Below are positions 25,794-41,248 of a stretch of 41,248 nt of DNA, one piece after another. Both the position numbers and the translations under genes were made by a program. Under the pieces are notes generated by a model. That model saw only the letters and a list, made by a program, of their open reading frames with translations. It was not told the DNA's origin and did not search any database. This stretch comes from a virus. Each line of letters starts with the position of its first letter. The first letter of the stretch is position 1. The DNA lies in the IMG/VR virus record IMGVR_UViG_3300042478_002451, positions 1 through 41,248 of that record; one strand, 5' to 3'.

Positions 25794-28016
25794 ATGGCTG
25801 ACCAGAGAATTACGCAGCTAACCCAGCTCTCCGAGGCTGACGTCGCGGCGATTGACGTCCTGCCCATCGTAGACATCTCGGCCAGCGAAACCAAGAAAGT
25901 CACCGCCAAGGACCTTTTTGAGGCTGGTGCCACCCTGGCTGACAGCTCCAGCATCGACCTTGTCAAGCTTAACCAGAGCAGCGTCACCAAACTCGGCACC
26001 ACCGCACTGGCCGACGACGCAATCACCGCCGCCAAACTGGCTGACGATTCCAGCATCCACTACGGCCCGACCGCTCCAGTTTCGGATAATTTCGAGGGCC
26101 GAGGCCATCTCGACAGCGCCACCAGCTATCTCAGCATCTGGGACGGCAGCGCCTTCCAGCAGGTCATCGCCCCGACTGCCGGCATCGAGGACCTAGCAGT
26201 CACGACCGGCAAACTTGCCGACAACGCAGTCACCACCGCCAAGGTCGACGCACTGGGCCTTGATACCGCAGCCCTGGCTGACAGCGCAGTCACAACCGCC
26301 AAAATTGCCGACGACGCAGTCACAGTCGACAAAATCGGCGCTGGCGCTGTCGATACAACCGCCCTTGCCAGCGACGCTGTCACCACCATCAAGGTGGCCG
26401 ACGACGCGATCACCTACACCAAGATCCAAAACGTCAGCGACACCGACAAGCTGCTGGGTCGCTCCAGCGCTGGCGCCGGTGATGTCGAAGAAATTGCCTG
26501 CACCAGTGCCGGCCGCGCTCTACTGGATGACGCCGACGCCGCCGCCCAGCGGACCACGCTGGGGCTTGGCACCCTGGCCACCCAGGATGGCACCTTCAGC
26601 GGCACCCACTCCGGCACCACCAGTGGCACCAACACCGGCGACCAAACCATCACCCTGACCGGTGATGTAACTGGCACAGGCACCGGCAGCTTCGCCGCGA
26701 GCATCGCGACTGACGCGGTGACCACCGCCAAGATCGCCACTGGCGCAGTCACCACCGACGAACTCGGAGCCGCCTCCGTCACCGGTCCCAAACTGGCCGC
26801 TGACTCCAGCACCGTTGTGAGCGGCAACGCCCCCAGCGGCAGCGGCGACTTCGAGGGCCAAGGCTGGATCAACACCAACACCGGCCTCAACTACGTGTGG
26901 ACTGGTGCTGCCTGGCAGCAAGTCGCTGCCCTGCAGACCATTACCTTCAGCGACACCACCCCGCTGACGTTCTCAGTCACAAAACCCGACAACTTCAGCG
27001 CCACGATCACAACTACCCTCGACACCCAAACCGCTGGCACTGTATTTGCTGGTCCAACTACTGGATCAGCCGCAAGTCCAACCTTCCGCGCCCTAGCTGC
27101 AACCGACCTTCCAATTGCCGTCAGCGGCACCAATGGCGCAGTCCAACCCGGCACAGGTCTGACCGTCACCGGCGCTGGCGTACTGAATCACACCAACAGC
27201 GCTGCTACCGGCACCTTCACCAAAGTCACGATCGACGCCCAAGGTCACGTCACCACAGGCGCCACGCTGAACGCAGCCGACATCCCCAGCCTCGATGCCA
27301 GCAAGATCACCACTGGCACGTTCAATTCGGCGTTTCTCTCTGAAAACAGCGTCACCGCCCAGCAGCTTGCTGACTATGGCATTGCACAAGTCAGCGAGAC
27401 TGCGCCAACACCTGAGTTTGCCGGCCAGTGGTGGATCAACCCTTCCGACCGCTCGGCCTACATCTGGGTTGGTACTGTCGCACCAACACCAAACGGTTAC
27501 TGGCTGCTGGTCGGTTACGGCAGCCCGACTCAGCTCAACCTGCGCTTTGGCGGCACCTACAACGCAACCAGCAACACCGTCGTCTCACTGAACCAGTACG
27601 GCGTCGAGGCTGGTCTGGTCATTGGTCAAGCGTTGACCGCGCCCAACCCGCAAAACAACGGTGTCTATCTGATCGTCACGACAGCTGGCACCGGCACAAC
27701 ACCTGCGCCTGTTGCTTCACTGGCCGCCGGCGACTGGGTTCTCAGCCAAGGCACCGGCGCCAACTGGACAAAAATCGCCGTTGTGTCTGGTGCGACTGGC
27801 ACCTTCAACGACTACGACATCCTGTCCGACGGCACGTACTTCACGCCGGACATGACCGGTGTGACGGACGTCCGCGACGCCCTCGTTCTGCTCTGGGGCC
27901 GCGCCCAGATTGCAACCACCTCCCAGATCGGCGTCGTGCTGGAGTCCACGGAGGTGCTGGTTGACAACAGCACCGGCGAAATGACCATCGGCGTGGTGGA
28001 CGATGGCACCTACTGA
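25794..28016 (+). CDS. Tail fibre protein with AVTTAKIADD-type repeats
   Basis: A 740-residue fibre. The N-terminal 40 residues (MADQRITQLTQLSEADVAA, then LPIVDISASETKKVT) are an attachment head seen in many phage fibres. Residues about 130-220 hold repeats of the form NAVTTAKVD / SAVTTAKIAD / DAVTVDKIG. A Gly/Thr-rich shaft follows (GTHSGTTSGTNTGDQTITL), then QGWINTNTGLNYVWTG, and further domains ending in LVDNSTGEMTIGVVDDGTY. It should reach from the tail tip to the cell surface. The stop overlaps the next ATG by one base. Confidence 0.88.
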   Translation: MADQRITQLTQLSEADVAAIDVLPIVDISASETKKVTAKDLFEAGATLADSSSIDLVKLNQSSVTKLGTTALADDAITAAKLADDSSIHYGPTAPVSDNFEGRGHLDSATSYLSIWDGSAFQQVIAPTAGIEDLAVTTGKLADNAVTTAKVDALGLDTAALADSAVTTAKIADDAVTVDKIGAGAVDTTALASDAVTTIKVADDAITYTKIQNVSDTDKLLGRSSAGAGDVEEIACTSAGRALLDDADAAAQRTTLGLGTLATQDGTFSGTHSGTTSGTNTGDQTITLTGDVTGTGTGSFAASIATDAVTTAKIATGAVTTDELGAASVTGPKLAADSSTVVSGNAPSGSGDFEGQGWINTNTGLNYVWTGAAWQQVAALQTITFSDTTPLTFSVTKPDNFSATITTTLDTQTAGTVFAGPTTGSAASPTFRALAATDLPIAVSGTNGAVQPGTGLTVTGAGVLNHTNSAATGTFTKVTIDAQGHVTTGATLNAADIPSLDASKITTGTFNSAFLSENSVTAQQLADYGIAQVSETAPTPEFAGQWWINPSDRSAYIWVGTVAPTPNGYWLLVGYGSPTQLNLRFGGTYNATSNTVVSLNQYGVEAGLVIGQALTAPNPQNNGVYLIVTTAGTGTTPAPVASLAAGDWVLSQGTGANWTKIAVVSGATGTFNDYDILSDGTYFTPDMTGVTDVRDALVLLWGRAQIATTSQIGVVLESTEVLVDNSTGEMTIGVVDDGTY
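26205..26420 (+). repeat. Degenerate tandem repeat encoding AVTTAKIADD-type units
   Basis: About six units around GCAGTCACAACCGCCAAA recur through this stretch and code for the fibre repeats. Unit lengths vary with the protein, so the pattern is protein-level. Confidence 0.7.
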
Positions 28017-34827: not shown

Positions 34828-34981
34828 CTTCCTTAGTGAGTCTGACCATCCGCAAACCCGGCCACAACTCCCGGATGGTGTGATGCGCATGGGTCATGCT
34901 GTCCGCCATGATCGCGGCTTTCTGGAGCAGCCCACCAGGCGTCCGCAACAACGCCACATAATTACAAGGTGCGTACTTCAT
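34817..34981 (-). CDS. Small unknown protein downstream of polymerase
   Basis: A 54-residue protein (MKYAPCNYVALLRTPGGLLQ, then KAAIMADSMTHAHHTIRELW and a basic end). Its ATG overlaps the polymerase stop as ATGA, so it should be translated by coupling. It is too short for a catalytic domain. It could be a polymerase partner, but no evidence beyond position supports this. Confidence 0.55.
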   Translation of the reverse strand: MKYAPCNYVALLRTPGGLLQKAAIMADSMTHAHHTIRELWPGLRMVRLTKEGDW

Positions 34982-36807
34982 TTTGCCTCCGCCCAAGTCA
35001 TGCCGATATTGGCATCTGCAAGTGGTGGCACATCATCCAACCACTCAGCTTCGGCCTCTTCCATCGTTGCCTTCAACTGATGCGCCCAAATATCGGCATG
35101 TTCTTCACGCACCAGCAAGATAATTTCGTCGTGCACGACGCCAGCTAGGCGCACAACTTCCTCCCCGTCTGCCTGGAGCAGCGGCCACAACTTACCGAGC
35201 GTGCGCTTAAGCACCGCCGCACCAGCCCCTTGGATTGGAGTGTTGCAGCGAATCGTGAGCGAATTGTGATCGCCGTAAAGAAGCCTCCGCAACCCGGAGT
35301 GACGAATCTTGATCGCGGCATTTCCTTTAGCCGCATTAGCAGCTGCAGCATTTTCACGCTGCCATTTGCTGATCCCTTTATAAGCAGCGTGGAATTTTTT
35401 CCGCACGTTTTCCGCTTCAGTAATATCCATTTGTATGCCCATGCCAGCTGCATAGTTTCTGAGTCCTTTTGCACCGCTTCCATATAACAATCCGAAGTTG
35501 GCTGATTTACTAACTTGGCGCTGATCTTTTGTGACTTCATCTGCTGAAACGCCATAAATCTGCATTGCTGTCAGTGTGTGCAAGTCCGTCCCAGCCTGGA
35601 ACGCTTGGATCATCAGCTCATCCTGAGCTTCGGCTGCCGCCAGCCTCAACTCCATCTGCGCGTAATCCGCCACTACCAGTCTCCATCCATCTGGCGCCTT
35701 GACGCACTCCCTAAACCTTGAATCTCTTGGAATTTGCTGCAGGTTGGGACTCATGCAACTCATGCGCCCTGTGTCAGCCCCCAACTGGAGGTAACTAGCC
35801 TTGATGTAGCCACTGGCACCCAGGTGCTTCAAGAGCGATTCGACCATCTGGCGCCGCTTCTCAATCCGCTTCCAAGCCAGGTAATCCGCAACCACAGGAT
35901 GATCAGCCACGTACTCACGCAACACCAGCTTGCTGGCACTGGGCTTCCCATCTGCCGTCACTGGTGCATTACCAAGTAATGCAGTAAAGACATCCAGCAA
36001 TTGCTTGGGGCTGTTCAGGTTGAAACCTGCCTCAACCCGATCGCCACCCCGTGCTGTTCCAGTGGCCTTGGCGTTGGTGTTTAGACGCCCATCAGCAAAC
36101 CTCGGCAGTTTCTTGTCTTCCGGCAATGCCTGATCCAAAGCAACCAGAAACTCCTCACCTCGCGTCCGATGCTGGAGCGTCAGCTCACGCTGGAGCGTTT
36201 CTAATCCGTTGCGATCAAACGGCAGGCCGGTTCGCCAAAGCTGCGCCATCGCCGGCAACGCCCGACACTCCAAAAACCAAGCCCGATGCAGATTCGCCTC
36301 TGCCATCCGCTGGTTAATCGGCCCATCCATCTGGATCAACAGCTGCACGTCCTTTGCCGCGTATTCCAGCTGTCCTTGGGTCAAATCGCCCGACCAGTCA
36401 CTCTTCTGCTCTTCCTTAGAGATCTCCTCCTTGAGATAACGTTTTACAACAGTCTGCAGACCGTGCTTTACGTTCGGCTGCCCATTGGTAAGGATCCGGC
36501 TAGCCAGCATGGTGCACAAGACCTCCCCATTGGGATAGATCTCGTGCTCCTGCAGCCAACCCAAGTCGAACACCGCATTGTGCGCCAGCCAGTAACGCTT
36601 CTGCGCAAAGAACTCCTCGATGTCCACCCACTGGTGATCCTCCAGCTCCCAGCAGTCAATGACCACCGGATCCCGATCCAGCGCGGCCAACTGCAATAAC
36701 CGCAACCCGCCGAATGTCGGCTGGAGCCCAGTCGTCTCACAGTCAAACGCCACAGTCGTGGCATTGGCGAGCGACCGAAGGTGCTCGATCCCTTGTAAAA
36801 AACGCAT
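34978..36807 (-). CDS. polA: Family A DNA polymerase with proofreading exonuclease
   Basis: A 609-residue polymerase. The N-terminal 3'-5' exonuclease has VAFDCETTGL (Exo I), AHNAVFDLGW (Exo II) and YAAKDVQLL (Exo III). The polymerase half has VVADYAQMELRLA (motif A), RQVSKSANFGLLYG (motif B, with Phe at the nucleotide-selecting position as in E. coli Pol I) and VVHDEIILL (motif C, about residue 575). No 5'-3' exonuclease domain is present. It is the main replicative enzyme of the phage. It heads a leftward set of small genes and has two copies of an 11-mer just upstream. Confidence 0.96.
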   Translation of the reverse strand: MRFLQGIEHLRSLANATTVAFDCETTGLQPTFGGLRLLQLAALDRDPVVIDCWELEDHQWVDIEEFFAQKRYWLAHNAVFDLGWLQEHEIYPNGEVLCTMLASRILTNGQPNVKHGLQTVVKRYLKEEISKEEQKSDWSGDLTQGQLEYAAKDVQLLIQMDGPINQRMAEANLHRAWFLECRALPAMAQLWRTGLPFDRNGLETLQRELTLQHRTRGEEFLVALDQALPEDKKLPRFADGRLNTNAKATGTARGGDRVEAGFNLNSPKQLLDVFTALLGNAPVTADGKPSASKLVLREYVADHPVVADYLAWKRIEKRRQMVESLLKHLGASGYIKASYLQLGADTGRMSCMSPNLQQIPRDSRFRECVKAPDGWRLVVADYAQMELRLAAAEAQDELMIQAFQAGTDLHTLTAMQIYGVSADEVTKDQRQVSKSANFGLLYGSGAKGLRNYAAGMGIQMDITEAENVRKKFHAAYKGISKWQRENAAAANAAKGNAAIKIRHSGLRRLLYGDHNSLTIRCNTPIQGAGAAVLKRTLGKLWPLLQADGEEVVRLAGVVHDEIILLVREEHADIWAHQLKATMEEAEAEWLDDVPPLADANIGMTWAEAK

Positions 36808-37996: not shown

Positions 37997-38240
37997 TGCC
38001 CTCCAGCTCGGCGGCAATGGCGAGAAAATGAGCGCGAATGGCGTGATGTGCGGCGAACACGCCTGCATCAGCGTCGGTGTCACCTAATGGCGTGTTCATC
38101 TGCACCTGATCCGCAGCAGCTCGCAAGGCGGCGGCTATACCAGATCTAAAGCGTTGGTGAGTGGCATCAGACCACGCATTAGTTGCGGAAGCATTAGCGA
38201 CATCCAGCACCCTCTGCGCGGCGGGGGAGAGGTCAGTCAT
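37989..38240 (-). CDS. Small unknown protein
   Basis: An 83-residue protein starting MTDLSPAAQRVLDVANASAT, a start pattern I have seen on small cyanobacterial and cyanophage proteins. The rest is helical and alanine-rich (SGIAAALRAAADQV). ATG 38246 is another possible start. It overlaps the upstream gene by 8 bases and the downstream gene by 8 bases. The function is unknown. Confidence 0.6.
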   Translation of the reverse strand: MTDLSPAAQRVLDVANASATNAWSDATHQRFRSGIAAALRAAADQVQMNTPLGDTDADAGVFAAHHAIRAHFLAIAAELEGNA

Positions 38241-38472
38241 CGTCATCCGGCAACTTTGCAATCAAGCGCTCCAGATACCAACGAGCTTTCATCAAATCCT
38301 GCCGTGGATCATCTTTACACCAGCAGCGCTCAACATACTTAAGCACCTGCCACTGCAGACCTCCCAAAACGGGATCTGGCGCAAACTGCACAGCATCCTC
38401 AATTTTGTCAATCACCTCAAACTGACGCATCCCACTGGCGTAATGCGTGGGATGGTTGACTGGATCGTTCAT
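38233..38472 (-). CDS. DUF3310 family protein
   Basis: A 79-residue protein. VNHPTHYASGMRQFEVIDKI is the DUF3310 signature (PxHY...E.ID.I), then QWQVLKYVERCWCKDDPRQD and a helical end. Phage DUF3310 proteins are often labelled nucleotide kinases but this is not proven. It follows dCTP deaminase with a 4-base overlap, which fits a role in nucleotide metabolism. Confidence 0.8.
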   Translation of the reverse strand: MNDPVNHPTHYASGMRQFEVIDKIEDAVQFAPDPVLGGLQWQVLKYVERCWCKDDPRQDLMKARWYLERLIAKLPDDDD

Positions 38473-38987
38473 TGAAAATACCCCTTGGATTGTTGAACAG
38501 TGCCGTCGTTTTGGTAGTGCCCACGCGCTGCATAAGTAAGTTGCGGTACTTCTGCTAAGCGGTGAACTACGAGCTGCCCAATGCGCATCCCATGCCAAAT
38601 CGGAATCGGATGGAACCGCCTGATGTTGCTCAGCTCCAGTGTCAAGATCCCGGAAAATCCGCTGTCTGCAAATCCGGCCAAGCTGTGCTCAATCCCTTCC
38701 CTGGCACGGGAAGACTTGAGCATGAACTGCACCGCGCAGTCATCAGGCACCGTGATGCGCTCCAGTGTTGCCGCAAGCAAAAACTCACCCGGCGCCATGA
38801 AGTACGGCGACTCCTGACTGGTGTCCCCGATGCTGACCTGCTGGAACTCAGTCGCAAGCTGAGTCTCAAACAAGATCGTCGGCCCCAGTCGTACATCCAG
38901 CGAACAGGGATTTACCAGTGCTGGGTCGTACTGATCGACAAGGCCCTGTTTGCACAGGGCCGCAATTTGCGAATCACACAAAATCAT
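38469..38987 (-). CDS. dcd: dCTP deaminase (dUTPase-fold)
   Basis: A 172-residue enzyme that turns dCTP into dUTP as the first step to dTTP. DYDPALVNPCSLDVRLG matches the N-terminal nucleotide-binding part (PxSxDxxLG). FMLKSSRAREGIEHSLAG contains the S-S-R motif, then FADSGFSGILTLELSNI is the Dcd/dUTPase motif with the GFxGxLTLELxN pattern. The C-terminus is Gly/Gln-rich (ARGHYQNDGTVQQSKGYFQ). It could be bifunctional with dUTPase. Its partner DUF3310 gene lies directly downstream. Confidence 0.9.
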   Translation of the reverse strand: MILCDSQIAALCKQGLVDQYDPALVNPCSLDVRLGPTILFETQLATEFQQVSIGDTSQESPYFMAPGEFLLAATLERITVPDDCAVQFMLKSSRAREGIEHSLAGFADSGFSGILTLELSNIRRFHPIPIWHGMRIGQLVVHRLAEVPQLTYAARGHYQNDGTVQQSKGYFQ

Positions 38988-39376
38988 CAGCTATGGAGCG
39001 TGACAACGTTGGATACAGCCGGCTCGACATGTTTCCAGGTCTTGCCGTACTTGATGCAGTTGATCGTGGTGGGATGCACCCCGTACCGCTTAGCCAGCTT
39101 GACTGCAGATAACTCCTTGGCGATCAAGATGCGCTTGATCTCCCGCACATCTGCCTCACGCAGCATCTCCCGCTTCTTGCGGCGAGACACACGAGTCTTA
39201 GGTTGAGACTGGGGCTGCTTGACGGTTTTGACGGTTTCCGGAGTTTTTTGCTCCAGTTCGAGGGTGACGGTCTGGGCGCAGCCGACGATCCGCGTCAGGT
39301 TCTGAATGATGTCAGACGCTGCCTGGATATTGGTCAGCAGATCGTGGGTTTCTTTGTCAGAGAGAAGAGTGAGCAT
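38987..39376 (-). CDS. Helix-turn-helix protein
   Basis: A 129-residue protein. The N-terminal 45 residues are helical. A Lys/Pro/Gln-rich linker follows (TVKQPQSQPKTRVSRRKK). The C-terminal 55 residues have AVKLAKRYGVHPTTINCIKY, a helix-turn-helix like those of homing-endonuclease-associated or transposase-like modules, ending in GKTWKHV. The start ATG 39376 is 22 bases after a TACACT box on the minus strand. A regulator is likely. Confidence 0.7.
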   Translation of the reverse strand: MLTLLSDKETHDLLTNIQAASDIIQNLTRIVGCAQTVTLELEQKTPETVKTVKQPQSQPKTRVSRRKKREMLREADVREIKRILIAKELSAVKLAKRYGVHPTTINCIKYGKTWKHVEPAVSNVVTLHS

Positions 39377-39398
39377 GAGAGGTGGTTGAACGTTGTGC

Positions 39399-39404
39399 AG
39401 TGTA
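39399..39404 (-). promoter_or_regulatory. -10-like box TACACT (leftward)
   Basis: On the minus strand AGTACTACACTGCAC lies 22 bases before the start at 39376. Confidence 0.5.
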
Positions 39405-39408
39405 GTAC

Positions 39409-39660
39409 TCAATCAGCCTGTTTGGCATAAGCCCGTTGAATCGCAATAAGAGTCTCAGCTGGGACACTGAGAATCTCGAAGAGCGCTAGGGCGGCTAGGC
39501 GGTCAGGCGTAACAGTGTCAGCAGCGGCAAGAGTGTCAGAAACTCGCCGATGAAGCTGACAGAGGTTGCGTGGGGCGACCCACGTCGAGTCGCCCGGTAT
39601 CGGCTCCGTGCCGTAGCCCCAGTCGTCGTAATCCTCCTCATTCCGCGTCGTCCTCGCCAA
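39409..39660 (-). CDS. Small unknown protein, probable TTG start
   Basis: An 83-residue protein. EDYDDWGYGTEPIPGDSTWV and then LCQLHRRVSDTLAAADTVTP, a helical end. No ATG or GTG exists at its start; TTG 39660 is the best in-frame codon I see, overlapping the upstream gene by 23 bases. GAGGAGG occurs at the upstream gene's stop but is not followed by a start in this frame. The end overlaps the TACACT promoter region at 39399. Confidence 0.5.
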   Translation of the reverse strand: MARTTRNEEDYDDWGYGTEPIPGDSTWVAPRNLCQLHRRVSDTLAAADTVTPDRLAALALFEILSVPAETLIAIQRAYAKQAD

Positions 39661-39919
39661 AGTCGTAGAGATCGGACTGGTCCACCACCTCCCAGTTCTC
39701 GATTCGGTCCTCGAACATGCGCCGGAGTCCTGCATCGGTAGCTGGAATTACGTCTTCATCACAAAAGTAGAAGGAGCCTCGGCACACGGCAGGCCCCCAT
39801 TCGGCCGGCTCTTCCATGGTGGGCGGATGCACCACGACCACATCATCGACCAGGGCCTCGACATGGCACGTCCCATCCACCCCAAAAGAAAGGTCCAACA
39901 CTTCGAGAACATCAGCCAC
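39638..39919 (-). CDS. Small acidic unknown protein
   Basis: A 93-residue acidic protein. It begins MADVLEVLDLSFGVDGTCHV, then VEALVDDVVVVHPPTMEEPA and an end with RRMFEDRIENWEVVDQSDLY. Strand-rich N-terminus and helical, charged C-terminus. It overlaps the genes on both sides by 8 and 23 bases. Unknown function. Confidence 0.65.
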   Translation of the reverse strand: MADVLEVLDLSFGVDGTCHVEALVDDVVVVHPPTMEEPAEWGPAVCRGSFYFCDEDVIPATDAGLRRMFEDRIENWEVVDQSDLYDFGEDDAE

Positions 39920-40163
39920 GGCTCACCTCCTCAACACGATGGCCGGTCAACTGCTCCATCCACGTGTCCCAGCTCATCTTGAGCCATTGCTCCATGTCCT
40001 CCAGGCGTTCCAGCTGGTGCCTGTCGTAACTGGCGCTGAGACCGTACTTCTCGGTGTTTGCAATGCGTTCTTTGATGCTGGTGATGGCCCAGCGGGTTGC
40101 GAAGTAGTACTCGCTGAGCTTGCTGTTGTCCAGCTTGGTGTGCAGGCTGGTGTGGGTGTCCAT
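39912..40163 (-). CDS. Small helical unknown protein
   Basis: An 83-residue, mostly helical protein with many charged residues (LSEYYFATRWAITSIKERIA, then RHQLERLEDMEQWLKMSWDT). It ends in MEQLTGHRVEEVSRG and overlaps the next gene by 8 bases. It starts the four-gene overlapping set down to 39409. Unknown function. Confidence 0.65.
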   Translation of the reverse strand: MDTHTSLHTKLDNSKLSEYYFATRWAITSIKERIANTEKYGLSASYDRHQLERLEDMEQWLKMSWDTWMEQLTGHRVEEVSRG

Positions 40164-40182
40164 AGTCCTCTAATACAGAAAC

Positions 40183-40208
40183 AGGGCAGGAAGCTCTCGC
40201 CCCCTGCC
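40183..40208 (-). other. Hairpin and repeat region before the 83-residue gene
   Basis: GGGCAGG and CCTGCCC (40183-40189 and 40202-40208 region) can pair; on the minus strand a short T-rich stretch follows. It may be a weak leftward terminator. CCATAGTGTTACACACA lies at 40208-40224. Confidence 0.35.
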
Positions 40209-40224
40209 CATAGTGTTACACACA
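40208..40224. repeat. 17-bp sequence repeated exactly at 2624-2640
   Basis: CCATAGTGTTACACACA occurs here in a gene gap and again at 2624-2640 inside the nuclease gene. The inner TGTTACACAC recurs at 6910-6919 before the large terminase. Confidence 0.55.
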
Positions 40225-40259
40225 GCCAGCGGTGCCGGCAATCCCATCAGTTGTAAAAC

Positions 40260-40607
40260 TTAATCCTCGGGTACGCCAAGGATGTGGGCGGGGTAGGTGG
40301 TGAGCACGGAGACGTCTGCCCCTTGGCGCAGGGCCTGCCCAACGACGTAGTGGAAGATCCGGGTGCTGTCGCCGCACTCGAAGATCTGGATCTCATCGAC
40401 CTCGACAGGCTTGCCCTTCCTAAACCAGCTGGTACGCACGATGCTGTGGATCTCATCGGGCACGTTGCCGACGGTGTAACAAAGCGTGGGCCGCCTAGGC
40501 GGCCTCGGCTCACGCTTGGACTTGTCTGCGACATCCACGGGGTCTCTCCAGAAGATCCAAGCGACCACCCGCAGGAGGCCCAAGAAAAAGTTAGGCGTTC
40601 GTAGCAC
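40260..40607 (-). CDS. Unknown protein with an N-terminal hydrophobic segment
   Basis: A 115-residue protein. GTG 40607 is chosen because GGAG lies 8 bases upstream; the longer TTG at 40655 lacks a good site. The first 20 residues (MLRTPNFFLGLLRVVAWIFW) are hydrophobic with a basic end, so it may be membrane-associated. The rest has CYTVGNVPDEIHSIVRTSWF and EIQIFECGDSTRIFHYVVG, a beta-rich domain. No known family. Confidence 0.6.
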   Translation of the reverse strand: MLRTPNFFLGLLRVVAWIFWRDPVDVADKSKREPRPPRRPTLCYTVGNVPDEIHSIVRTSWFRKGKPVEVDEIQIFECGDSTRIFHYVVGQALRQGADVSVLTTYPAHILGVPED

Positions 40608-40654
40608 GGGCAGCTCTCCAGTAACGGCAGGGTTTTGCGTACACCCGCTCGTCA

Positions 40655-40679
40655 AGACACGGGAATGACCCGCGTGTCT
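40655..40679 (-). other. Inverted repeat after the primase-type gene
   Basis: AGACACG (40655-40661) and CGTGTCT (40673-40679) form a 7-bp inverted repeat in the gap after the stop at 40686. No T-run follows on either strand. Confidence 0.45.
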
Positions 40680-40685
40680 GTTGTA

Positions 40686-41248
40686 CTACGTCCAGCTGTC
40701 CGAGGCACTTCGCATCAGCTGTGCCATCTCCTCGGGAGTGCGTTGGCTCTCGCGCGTGAAGATAGACGTGTCCTGCTGTCCCAAACTCTGAGATCCATTG
40801 CCCTGCAACGGATCTACTGTTTTGAGTTGTCCCATTTTGTCCCGTTTTGTCCCAACCTGTCCTTTGGGTGTCCCAGAGCCCGGCTGACGCTCCGGTTTGG
40901 GACAACTTGGGACAAACTGGGACAGCTTGGGACAACCCATTTCCTGAGATCCCTTTCCAGCACTGGATTCTTCTTCTTTGGGACAAGGTATACCTCCTCC
41001 CCCCACGCGCGCGAGTACTGCTGAGTAGCGCTTGCTGGAACGTTCTCCTTCAACCGAGACCAGCCCCCGGTCGACCAAGCGCTGGAGCGACTTGGAGATT
41101 GCGCTGACGCTGCCCCCAAGCAGAGGGTCGGCGTTCAACTCAGTCCGAGTCATTGGCACGCCTTTGGTGCGCAGCCGCTGAAGCACCCGGTCGATGATCG
41201 AGGCAGGACTGGCCGAATCGACTCCTTCCAGAGCCGGCAGATCCTGGA
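40686..41248 (-). CDS. C-terminal winged-helix region of a replication protein, 5' end cut by window edge
   Basis: The frame is open to the right edge, so the visible 187 residues are a C-terminus. Residues near the edge read QDLPALEGVDSASPASIIDR, then a winged helix (VLQRLRTKGVPMTRTELNAD, then SVSAISKSLQRLVDRGLVSV). The next 90 residues are low-complexity (Gly, Ser, Gln, Pro). They are coded over DNA that carries two arrays of TGTCCC repeats. The end has RTPEEMAQLMRSASDSWT. Frame and strand fit the truncated primase-ATPase at 1-1498, whose C-terminus this could be. Confidence 0.65.
   Translation of the reverse strand, partial: QDLPALEGVDSASPASIIDRVLQRLRTKGVPMTRTELNADPLLGGSVSAISKSLQRLVDRGLVSVEGERSSKRYSAVLARVGGGGIPCPKEEESSAGKGSQEMGCPKLSQFVPSCPKPERQPGSGTPKGQVGTKRDKMGQLKTVDPLQGNGSQSLGQQDTSIFTRESQRTPEEMAQLMRSASDSWT
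40828..40863 (+). repeat. TGTCCC array, 10-bp period
   Basis: TGTCCC starts at 40828, 40838 and 40848, and TGTCCT at 40858; a further TGTCCC is at 40869. Spacing is exactly 10 bases, not a multiple of 3. Confidence 0.9.
40899..40934 (+). repeat. GGGACA array, 10-bp period, inverted relative to the TGTCCC array
   Basis: GGGACA starts at 40899, 40909, 40919 and 40929, exactly 10 bases apart; a further copy is at 40980. It is the reverse complement of the array at 40828 and faces it across about 35 bases. Confidence 0.9.

Follow-up and report, generated by a model that had tools for sequence, protein, structure and literature searches.

The locus analyzed here raises the question of why the coding sequence of a viral replicase gene contains two facing sets of short repeats, and which protein these repeats might bind. 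The window (the entire analyzed stretch, an IMG/VR record of 41,248 bp) lacks terminal repeats, and the replicase gene, located on the minus strand, is split by the contig ends into two pieces. The 5' part of the gene (2-1498, read from 1498 to 2 and running off the contig end) encodes residues 1-499 with the PrimPol, PriCT_2 and RepA-type helicase domains (Pfam matches PF09250 Prim-Pol, PF08707 PriCT_2 and PF13481 AAA_25), and the 3' part (40686-41248, open reading frame 41246-40686) encodes residues 627-812, in which the AF2 models place a winged-helix (WH) domain, the linker encoded by the array and a C-terminal helix. Comparison with intact relatives, including L003 and L010, indicates that 381 bp of the gene (127 residues) are absent between the contig ends. 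Because both ends fall within one gene from which 381 bp are missing, the record probably represents an almost full-length genome, circular or circularly permuted, that was cut in the replicase gene.

The window is likely to belong to a picocyanobacterial siphovirus; the nearest relative of its endolysin is that of Synechococcus phage S-CBS1 (55%), and the terminase shows 42-44% to Vibrio and cyanophage S-2L sequences. The replicase gene is part of a leftward gene cluster that also holds a dCTP deaminase-like gene (38469-38987) and a family A DNA polymerase gene (34978-36807), and a tail-fibre-like gene elsewhere in the window contains a 90-bp tandem repeat (26196-26365, 1.9 copies, 75% match). 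A DNA search of positions 38000-41248 against known phages detected no similarity, and a protein search with residues 1-499 gave a single weak match, in Aeromonas phage AeroV_348, whose gene has no comparable array among its 20 largest repeat families. The search of bacterial genomes yielded one weak relative, in a MAG, with other repeats right after the gene. On a gammaproteobacterial MAG contig (L167, 5418-5622), TACCCCC repeats in both orientations directly follow the stop of a Prim-Pol gene, with an integrase-like gene nearby.

With a mean pLDDT of 61, the overall AF2 model has modest quality and was therefore used for domain boundaries only. The domain order, namely an archaeo-eukaryotic type (AEP) primase, PriCT, a RepA-type ATPase and a C-terminal WH, is that of the PrimQH or Prim-Pol-RepA replicases. 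By structure comparison, the helicase fold resembles RSF1010 RepA (TM 0.63-0.69), and a sequence search of the PDB with the full-length replicase profile gave no match. The predicted WH domain (residues about 640-704; 41013-41207, minus strand) consists of helices 643-654, 660-665 and 673-685 and strands 689-692 and 699-702; it matches WH domains of the ArsR, MarR and TFE types by fold (best E 2.3e-3) and PF01978 (TrmB) by sequence with an E of 8e-5, which falls under the curated cut-off. Recognition helix H3 (residues 673-685) is encoded at 41070-41108 and includes residue 677 (codon 41094-41096), and the loop forming the wing (residues 693-698) is encoded at 41031-41048. The linker that follows (residues 706-794; 40743-41009, minus strand) is rich in G, K, P and S and is predicted to be disordered, with pLDDT mostly 25-31, in keeping with the first-pass annotation, which described this segment as low-complexity and free to vary. 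The coding DNA of the linker contains the array, which would be tolerated there because the encoded segment is disordered. The protein ends with a predicted helix (residues 797-811; 40692-40736, minus strand), and R795, A807 and W811 are invariant in an alignment of 49 sequences.

All repeat copies listed in the first-pass annotation were found where it placed them: TGTCCC/T at 40828, 40838, 40848 and 40858 (the last copy being TGTCCT), GGGACA at 40899, 40909, 40919 and 40929, and extra copies at 40869 and 40980. One more copy, at 40777, had been overlooked and pairs with the copy at 40980. The complete array thus extends over 40777-40985 and consists of an outer left iteron TGTCCCA (40777-40783, plus strand), an inner left block with a period of 10 (40828-40862, plus strand), an unpaired TGTCCC near the centre (40869-40874, plus strand), an inner right block with the same period (40899-40935, minus strand) and an outer right iteron (40979-40986, minus strand). 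The starts of the TGTCC 5-mers (40777/40828/40838/40848/40858) and those of the GGACA 5-mers (40981/40930/40920/40910/40900) form five pairs with a constant sum of 81758, that is, with exact dyad symmetry around 40881. Between the outer and inner left iterons lies a spacer element, CTGAGATCC...GGATCT (40788-40815), recognized as direct repeat D5 and in the half-array consensus, with a partial second copy at 40944-40970. As to chance occurrence, all seven occurrences of TTGTCCC in the entire window fall within the array, and [TC]GGGACA is found 10 times in the array compared to 5 times in the remaining 41 kb.

An iteron origin is expected to contain a number of short, nearly identical repeats in phase with the turn of the DNA helix, as the array does, and the location of these repeats in the linker-encoding segment of a gene for a putative initiator is that of an origin inside an initiator gene. 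A turning point of the GC skew, which the first-pass annotation had named as a mark to look for at this site, was not seen at the array, so that the skew lends no support to an origin there. The AT content is 34-54% per 50 bp across the array compared to 34-46% nearby, and at this resolution no clearly AT-rich unwinding element adjoining the array is evident.

Searches of viral contigs yielded 107 non-identical versions of the replicase gene, and every one of these (107/107) contains at least four GGACA/TGTCC sites past the part that encodes the WH. After dereplication of the relatives at 3%, 408 of the 474 sites (86%) belong to mirror pairs within a tolerance of 1 bp. Two layouts were found. 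In the first, T-51-TTTT/GGGG-51-G, a T site is followed by four T sites at +51/61/71/81, mirrored in the other half; the second, T-45-G-16-T-10-T, is likewise mirrored and has a T site, a G site at +45, T sites at +61 and often at +71, and a variable centre. The mirror layout is kept only partly in the L036/L038 group. Across the relatives, mirror complementarity outside the iterons averages 0.40 compared to the background of 0.25, suggesting that elements of the spacers may belong to the site. In L003, a near-identical relative with the same layout as the window, the 13 observed sites compare with a mean of 6.4 and a maximum of 10 in 300 synonymous-codon shuffles, and the five observed dyad pairs with at most three in the same shuffles; random placement of the sites reached five dyad pairs in none of 2000 trials.

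The comparison of relatives bears out the claim that conservation in this segment is at the DNA level. With the anchor sites excluded, pairwise identity in two clades is 99.4% and 95.5% at core positions versus 77% and 62% at other linker positions, and third positions of codons that specify the same residue are 100% identical in the cores versus 84% and 83% in the rest of the linker; in the helicase domain, the corresponding value is 61-63%. The GGACA core is nearly invariant, synonymous positions included. This pattern of core and third-position identity indicates that selection acts on the DNA. In distant relatives, equivalent arrays, often made of other words, are located shortly past the stop codon (in nine of the 12 named phages or plasmids sampled by helicase similarity), which also argues that the feature is one of DNA rather than of protein.

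The bases that precede GGACA differ among phages (AAGGTG, CAGTG, CAGCT, tAGGG, AGGGG, AAAAnA and nnTTG were observed) and, within an array, are usually common to the copies in both orientations. For each column of the protein alignment upstream of the array, we compared iteron distance with residue mismatch while controlling for the distance between the N-terminal parts; because plain mutual information is dominated by residues that are themselves encoded by the array, only upstream columns and distance-controlled measures were employed. The 15 columns that AF2 assigns to H3 and the wing account for 7 of the top 10 among 410 variable columns (hypergeometric P 2e-9) and, in clade B alone, for 8 of the top 10 among 289 columns (P 1e-10), with residue 677, the top covarying position of the helix, in first place (r 0.67); the wing loop covaries with the flank of the iteron. 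Given that columns were treated as exchangeable and the sets were examined repeatedly, these P values express strength and are not exact probabilities. In clade A alone (n=19), the ranking of the residues is less clear. Mean r for H3 and the wing is 0.18-0.23; the remaining residues of the WH average 0.06 and columns elsewhere about 0, and most of the residues between H3 and the wing do not covary with the iteron; the low value for the rest of the domain argues against closeness to the array as the main cause of the covariation, which also persists when the nucleotide distance of the WH scaffold is controlled. Joint transfer of neighbouring DNA could be part of the source of the association. 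The match of residues to bases is not one-to-one, the helix GIRKAL accompanying both CAGTG and AAAAC flanks.

On the tree of the N-terminal part of the protein, 37 changes of the iteron class were counted. Changes at residues 677, 695-698 and 704 of the WH fall on the branches where the iteron changes above the background rate of 30%, in particular 17 of 21 changes for K698 and 14 of 22 for S677. In the pair L063 and L056, residues 1-600 are mostly 92-98% identical per 40-codon window and the WH and array are 56-74% identical, which shows that both were replaced together at least once. The WH and the array can thus be exchanged as a single module.

Taken together, these observations make it very likely that the array comprises the iterons at which replication of the phage originates, and that the protein which they help to encode binds them through its WH. 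Origin activity, binding by the WH, double loading and a bidirectional start are what we infer from sequence comparison and predicted structure. The replicase would be a single-chain initiator combining Prim-Pol, RepA-type helicase and WH. The WH would read each iteron, with H3 and the wing touching the variable bases ahead of the near-constant GGACA core; each of the two facing half-arrays would serve to load a helicase ring, in an orientation opposite to that of the other, the mirror arrangement suggesting two rings that face each other, and the DNA would open. The attached primase might then start synthesis, probably in both directions. The first-pass annotation had read the repeats as a binding array, conserved as DNA in a protein segment that is free to vary, and perhaps as the origin, to be bound by the WH that the gene itself encodes; this reading is supported by the comparative data.

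Facing repeats could also function as a folded single strand, either as a stem-loop origin of the kind proposed for pRN1 or as a hairpin in the mRNA, rather than as protein sites in duplex DNA. The two halves of the array are indeed complementary (I2, 31 nt, 84%), the complementarity outside the iterons described above would fit a stem, and the PrimPol-WH initiators of the pRN1 type employ a stem-loop directly after the gene (PMC4234260). A stem, however, requires only matching partners, yet copies in the same orientation also share one word per genome; a single RNA or ssDNA hairpin was rejected on the ground that it leaves this identity unexplained. Moreover, the T-G-T-T/G-G-T-G layout with its widely varying central spacing does not produce a single constant stem, and the iteron word covaries with the residues of the WH predicted to contact DNA. 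A folded strand is accordingly an improbable explanation of the array.

Two gene-blind scans of IMG/VR for DNA patterns yielded at least 240 loci. Among the matches listed, all 26 of the 26 loci with facing arrays belong to the replicase gene family, and an iterated profile identified a related ORF in 117 of 240 loci. In 96 of these 117, again among the matches listed, the array lies between -600 and +300 of the stop of the related ORF, inside it in 50 cases and downstream in 46. The array of L346 spans the stop codon, and in L375, L405 and similar loci the array is located about 90 bp upstream of the related ORF. For a pattern-free check, 12 named phages and plasmids were picked by helicase similarity, a convenience sample that includes some without a primase domain. 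In nine of the 12, the 350 bp past the stop contain 6-15 copies of a single 7-mer, versus at most four in other windows of the same locus; in the remaining three, no downstream array was found in the 350 bp after the stop.

Several of the individual loci deserve mention. In Roseobacter phages CRP-831 (L490, 3518-3669) and CRP-811 (L499, 3019-3182), the arrays past a RepA-family helicase gene are spaced almost identically and consist of different words, TTTATAC and TTTGTAG, respectively. In Rhizobium phages RHph_X2_25 (L488, 3628-3960) and 16-3 (L489, 3626-3997), 15 and 13 copies of TGTCACG, in both orientations, are found immediately past a primase/polymerase gene. RepA-family helicase genes of plasmids or phage-plasmids are followed by arrays of other words in L493 (3573-3765), L498 (2976-3154), L495, L496 and L497. 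A terminator-like stem (ACACCCCTTTAGGGGTGT or similar) follows the stop in L434, L475, L386 and L346, within the array and beside the iterons.

The location of the array in these relatives bears on the possibility that it is an operator through which the replicase protein or another phage regulator controls transcription. WH domains are frequent in repressors, and the array is located within an early operon. The array, however, lies at the 3' end of a gene rather than at a promoter, the covariation involves the WH of the initiator itself, and in distant relatives the array is kept beside the 3' end of the replicase gene. An operator in place of an origin is likewise improbable, and an additional autoregulatory role of the array is possible. 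That the WH binds sites for partition, incompatibility or packaging instead of an origin is highly improbable: clustered repeats mark centromere-like sites as well, and some proteins that bind plasmid centromeres resemble the WH (4rs8 is among the fold matches), but the candidate binder forms one chain with a primase and a helicase. Finally, the idea that the repeats are a by-product of encoding a low-complexity peptide, for which the disorder and composition of the linker might speak, can practically be dismissed and was rejected, as the repeats pass through different codon phases, synonymous shuffles fail to reproduce them, third positions of the cores are invariant and the arrays of distant relatives are non-coding.

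Beyond the window, we consider it likely that a wide class of replicases of phages and other mobile elements, with either a primase, RepA helicase and WH or a RepA helicase and WH, has its origin in an array of facing iterons located where the replicase gene itself ends, past the stop or, in the cyanophage-like family, in the coding sequence near its 3' end, and that the WH and the iteron word together make up a single unit of specificity, which can be exchanged and has been re-specified on many occasions. If so, this class would offer a simple rule by which the origins of many phages and plasmids could be located, naturally occurring pairs of WH and iteron, both matched and mismatched, and a natural data set for reading the recognition code of a winged helix. 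For most phages whose replicases are of the AEP type, the origin is not known, and we found no description of the present one among the open-access papers that were searched.

Among known systems, the replicases of the PrimQH group have the same order of Primase, PriCT, RepA-type ATPase and C-terminal WH (PMC5862659), and the authors describing them suggested that the C-terminal WH might recognize the origin, with neither an origin nor iterons named in the passages considered; the likeness concerns domain order, and the present analysis makes this guess testable by naming the residues and bases involved. ORF904 of pRN1 similarly combines an AEP primase, a helicase and a C-terminal WH, and its gene has the origin next to its 3' end, but it has an SF3 helicase and a stem-loop and lacks iterons (PMC4234260). 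The same three functions, and a shared RepA helicase fold, are found in RepA, RepB' and RepC of RSF1010 (PMC4234260), which are three separate proteins as opposed to the one chain described here.

The location of iterons inside the initiator gene resembles that in ori-lambda (PMC3985674, PMC7466680). Lambda O is without a helicase or primase domain, depends on P and DnaB, and has four 19-bp iterons beside an AT-rich region (PMC3985674, PMC7466680), whereas the present array is facing and has a 10-bp period; the replicase has no Pfam or PHROG match to the lambda O family, and no sequence relationship was found. The RepA_N initiators of the pSK41 type also have a winged HTH, a linker encoded by the origin and a C-terminal domain, with the origin inside the rep gene (PMC5703833); they differ in the N-terminal RepA_N domain, to which the replicase has no Pfam match, in a C-terminal domain that binds the host DnaG and in the four Rep boxes (PMC5703833).

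The repeated re-specification of the origin resembles PLE and ICP1, in which swaps of initiator domains and origins are believed to be favoured by a nuclease that targets the origin (PMC8263062); that satellites or nucleases act as drivers in the present family is a speculation by analogy. With respect to the proposed mechanism, the counterpart is SaPI Rep (as well as Cch2 of SCCmec), a helicase initiator with a C-terminal origin-binding domain and short iterons right after the helicase gene, on which two hexamers are apparently bound (PMC7581432). In arrangement, a helicase with a putative C-terminal origin binder and candidate iterons toward the 3' side of the gene, the replicase resembles SaPI Rep and its ori; its helicase is of another class, RepA/DnaB-like, and is joined to an AEP primase, and the array is within the gene. 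The functional scheme is hence known beforehand from SaPI Rep (PMC7581432), as is the in-gene position from lambda O and pSK41 Rep; what appears to be new, judged by the open-access papers that were searched, is the in-gene mirror array in an AEP replicase, the concerted re-specification of this array and its placement, as a rule, where the gene has its 3' end.
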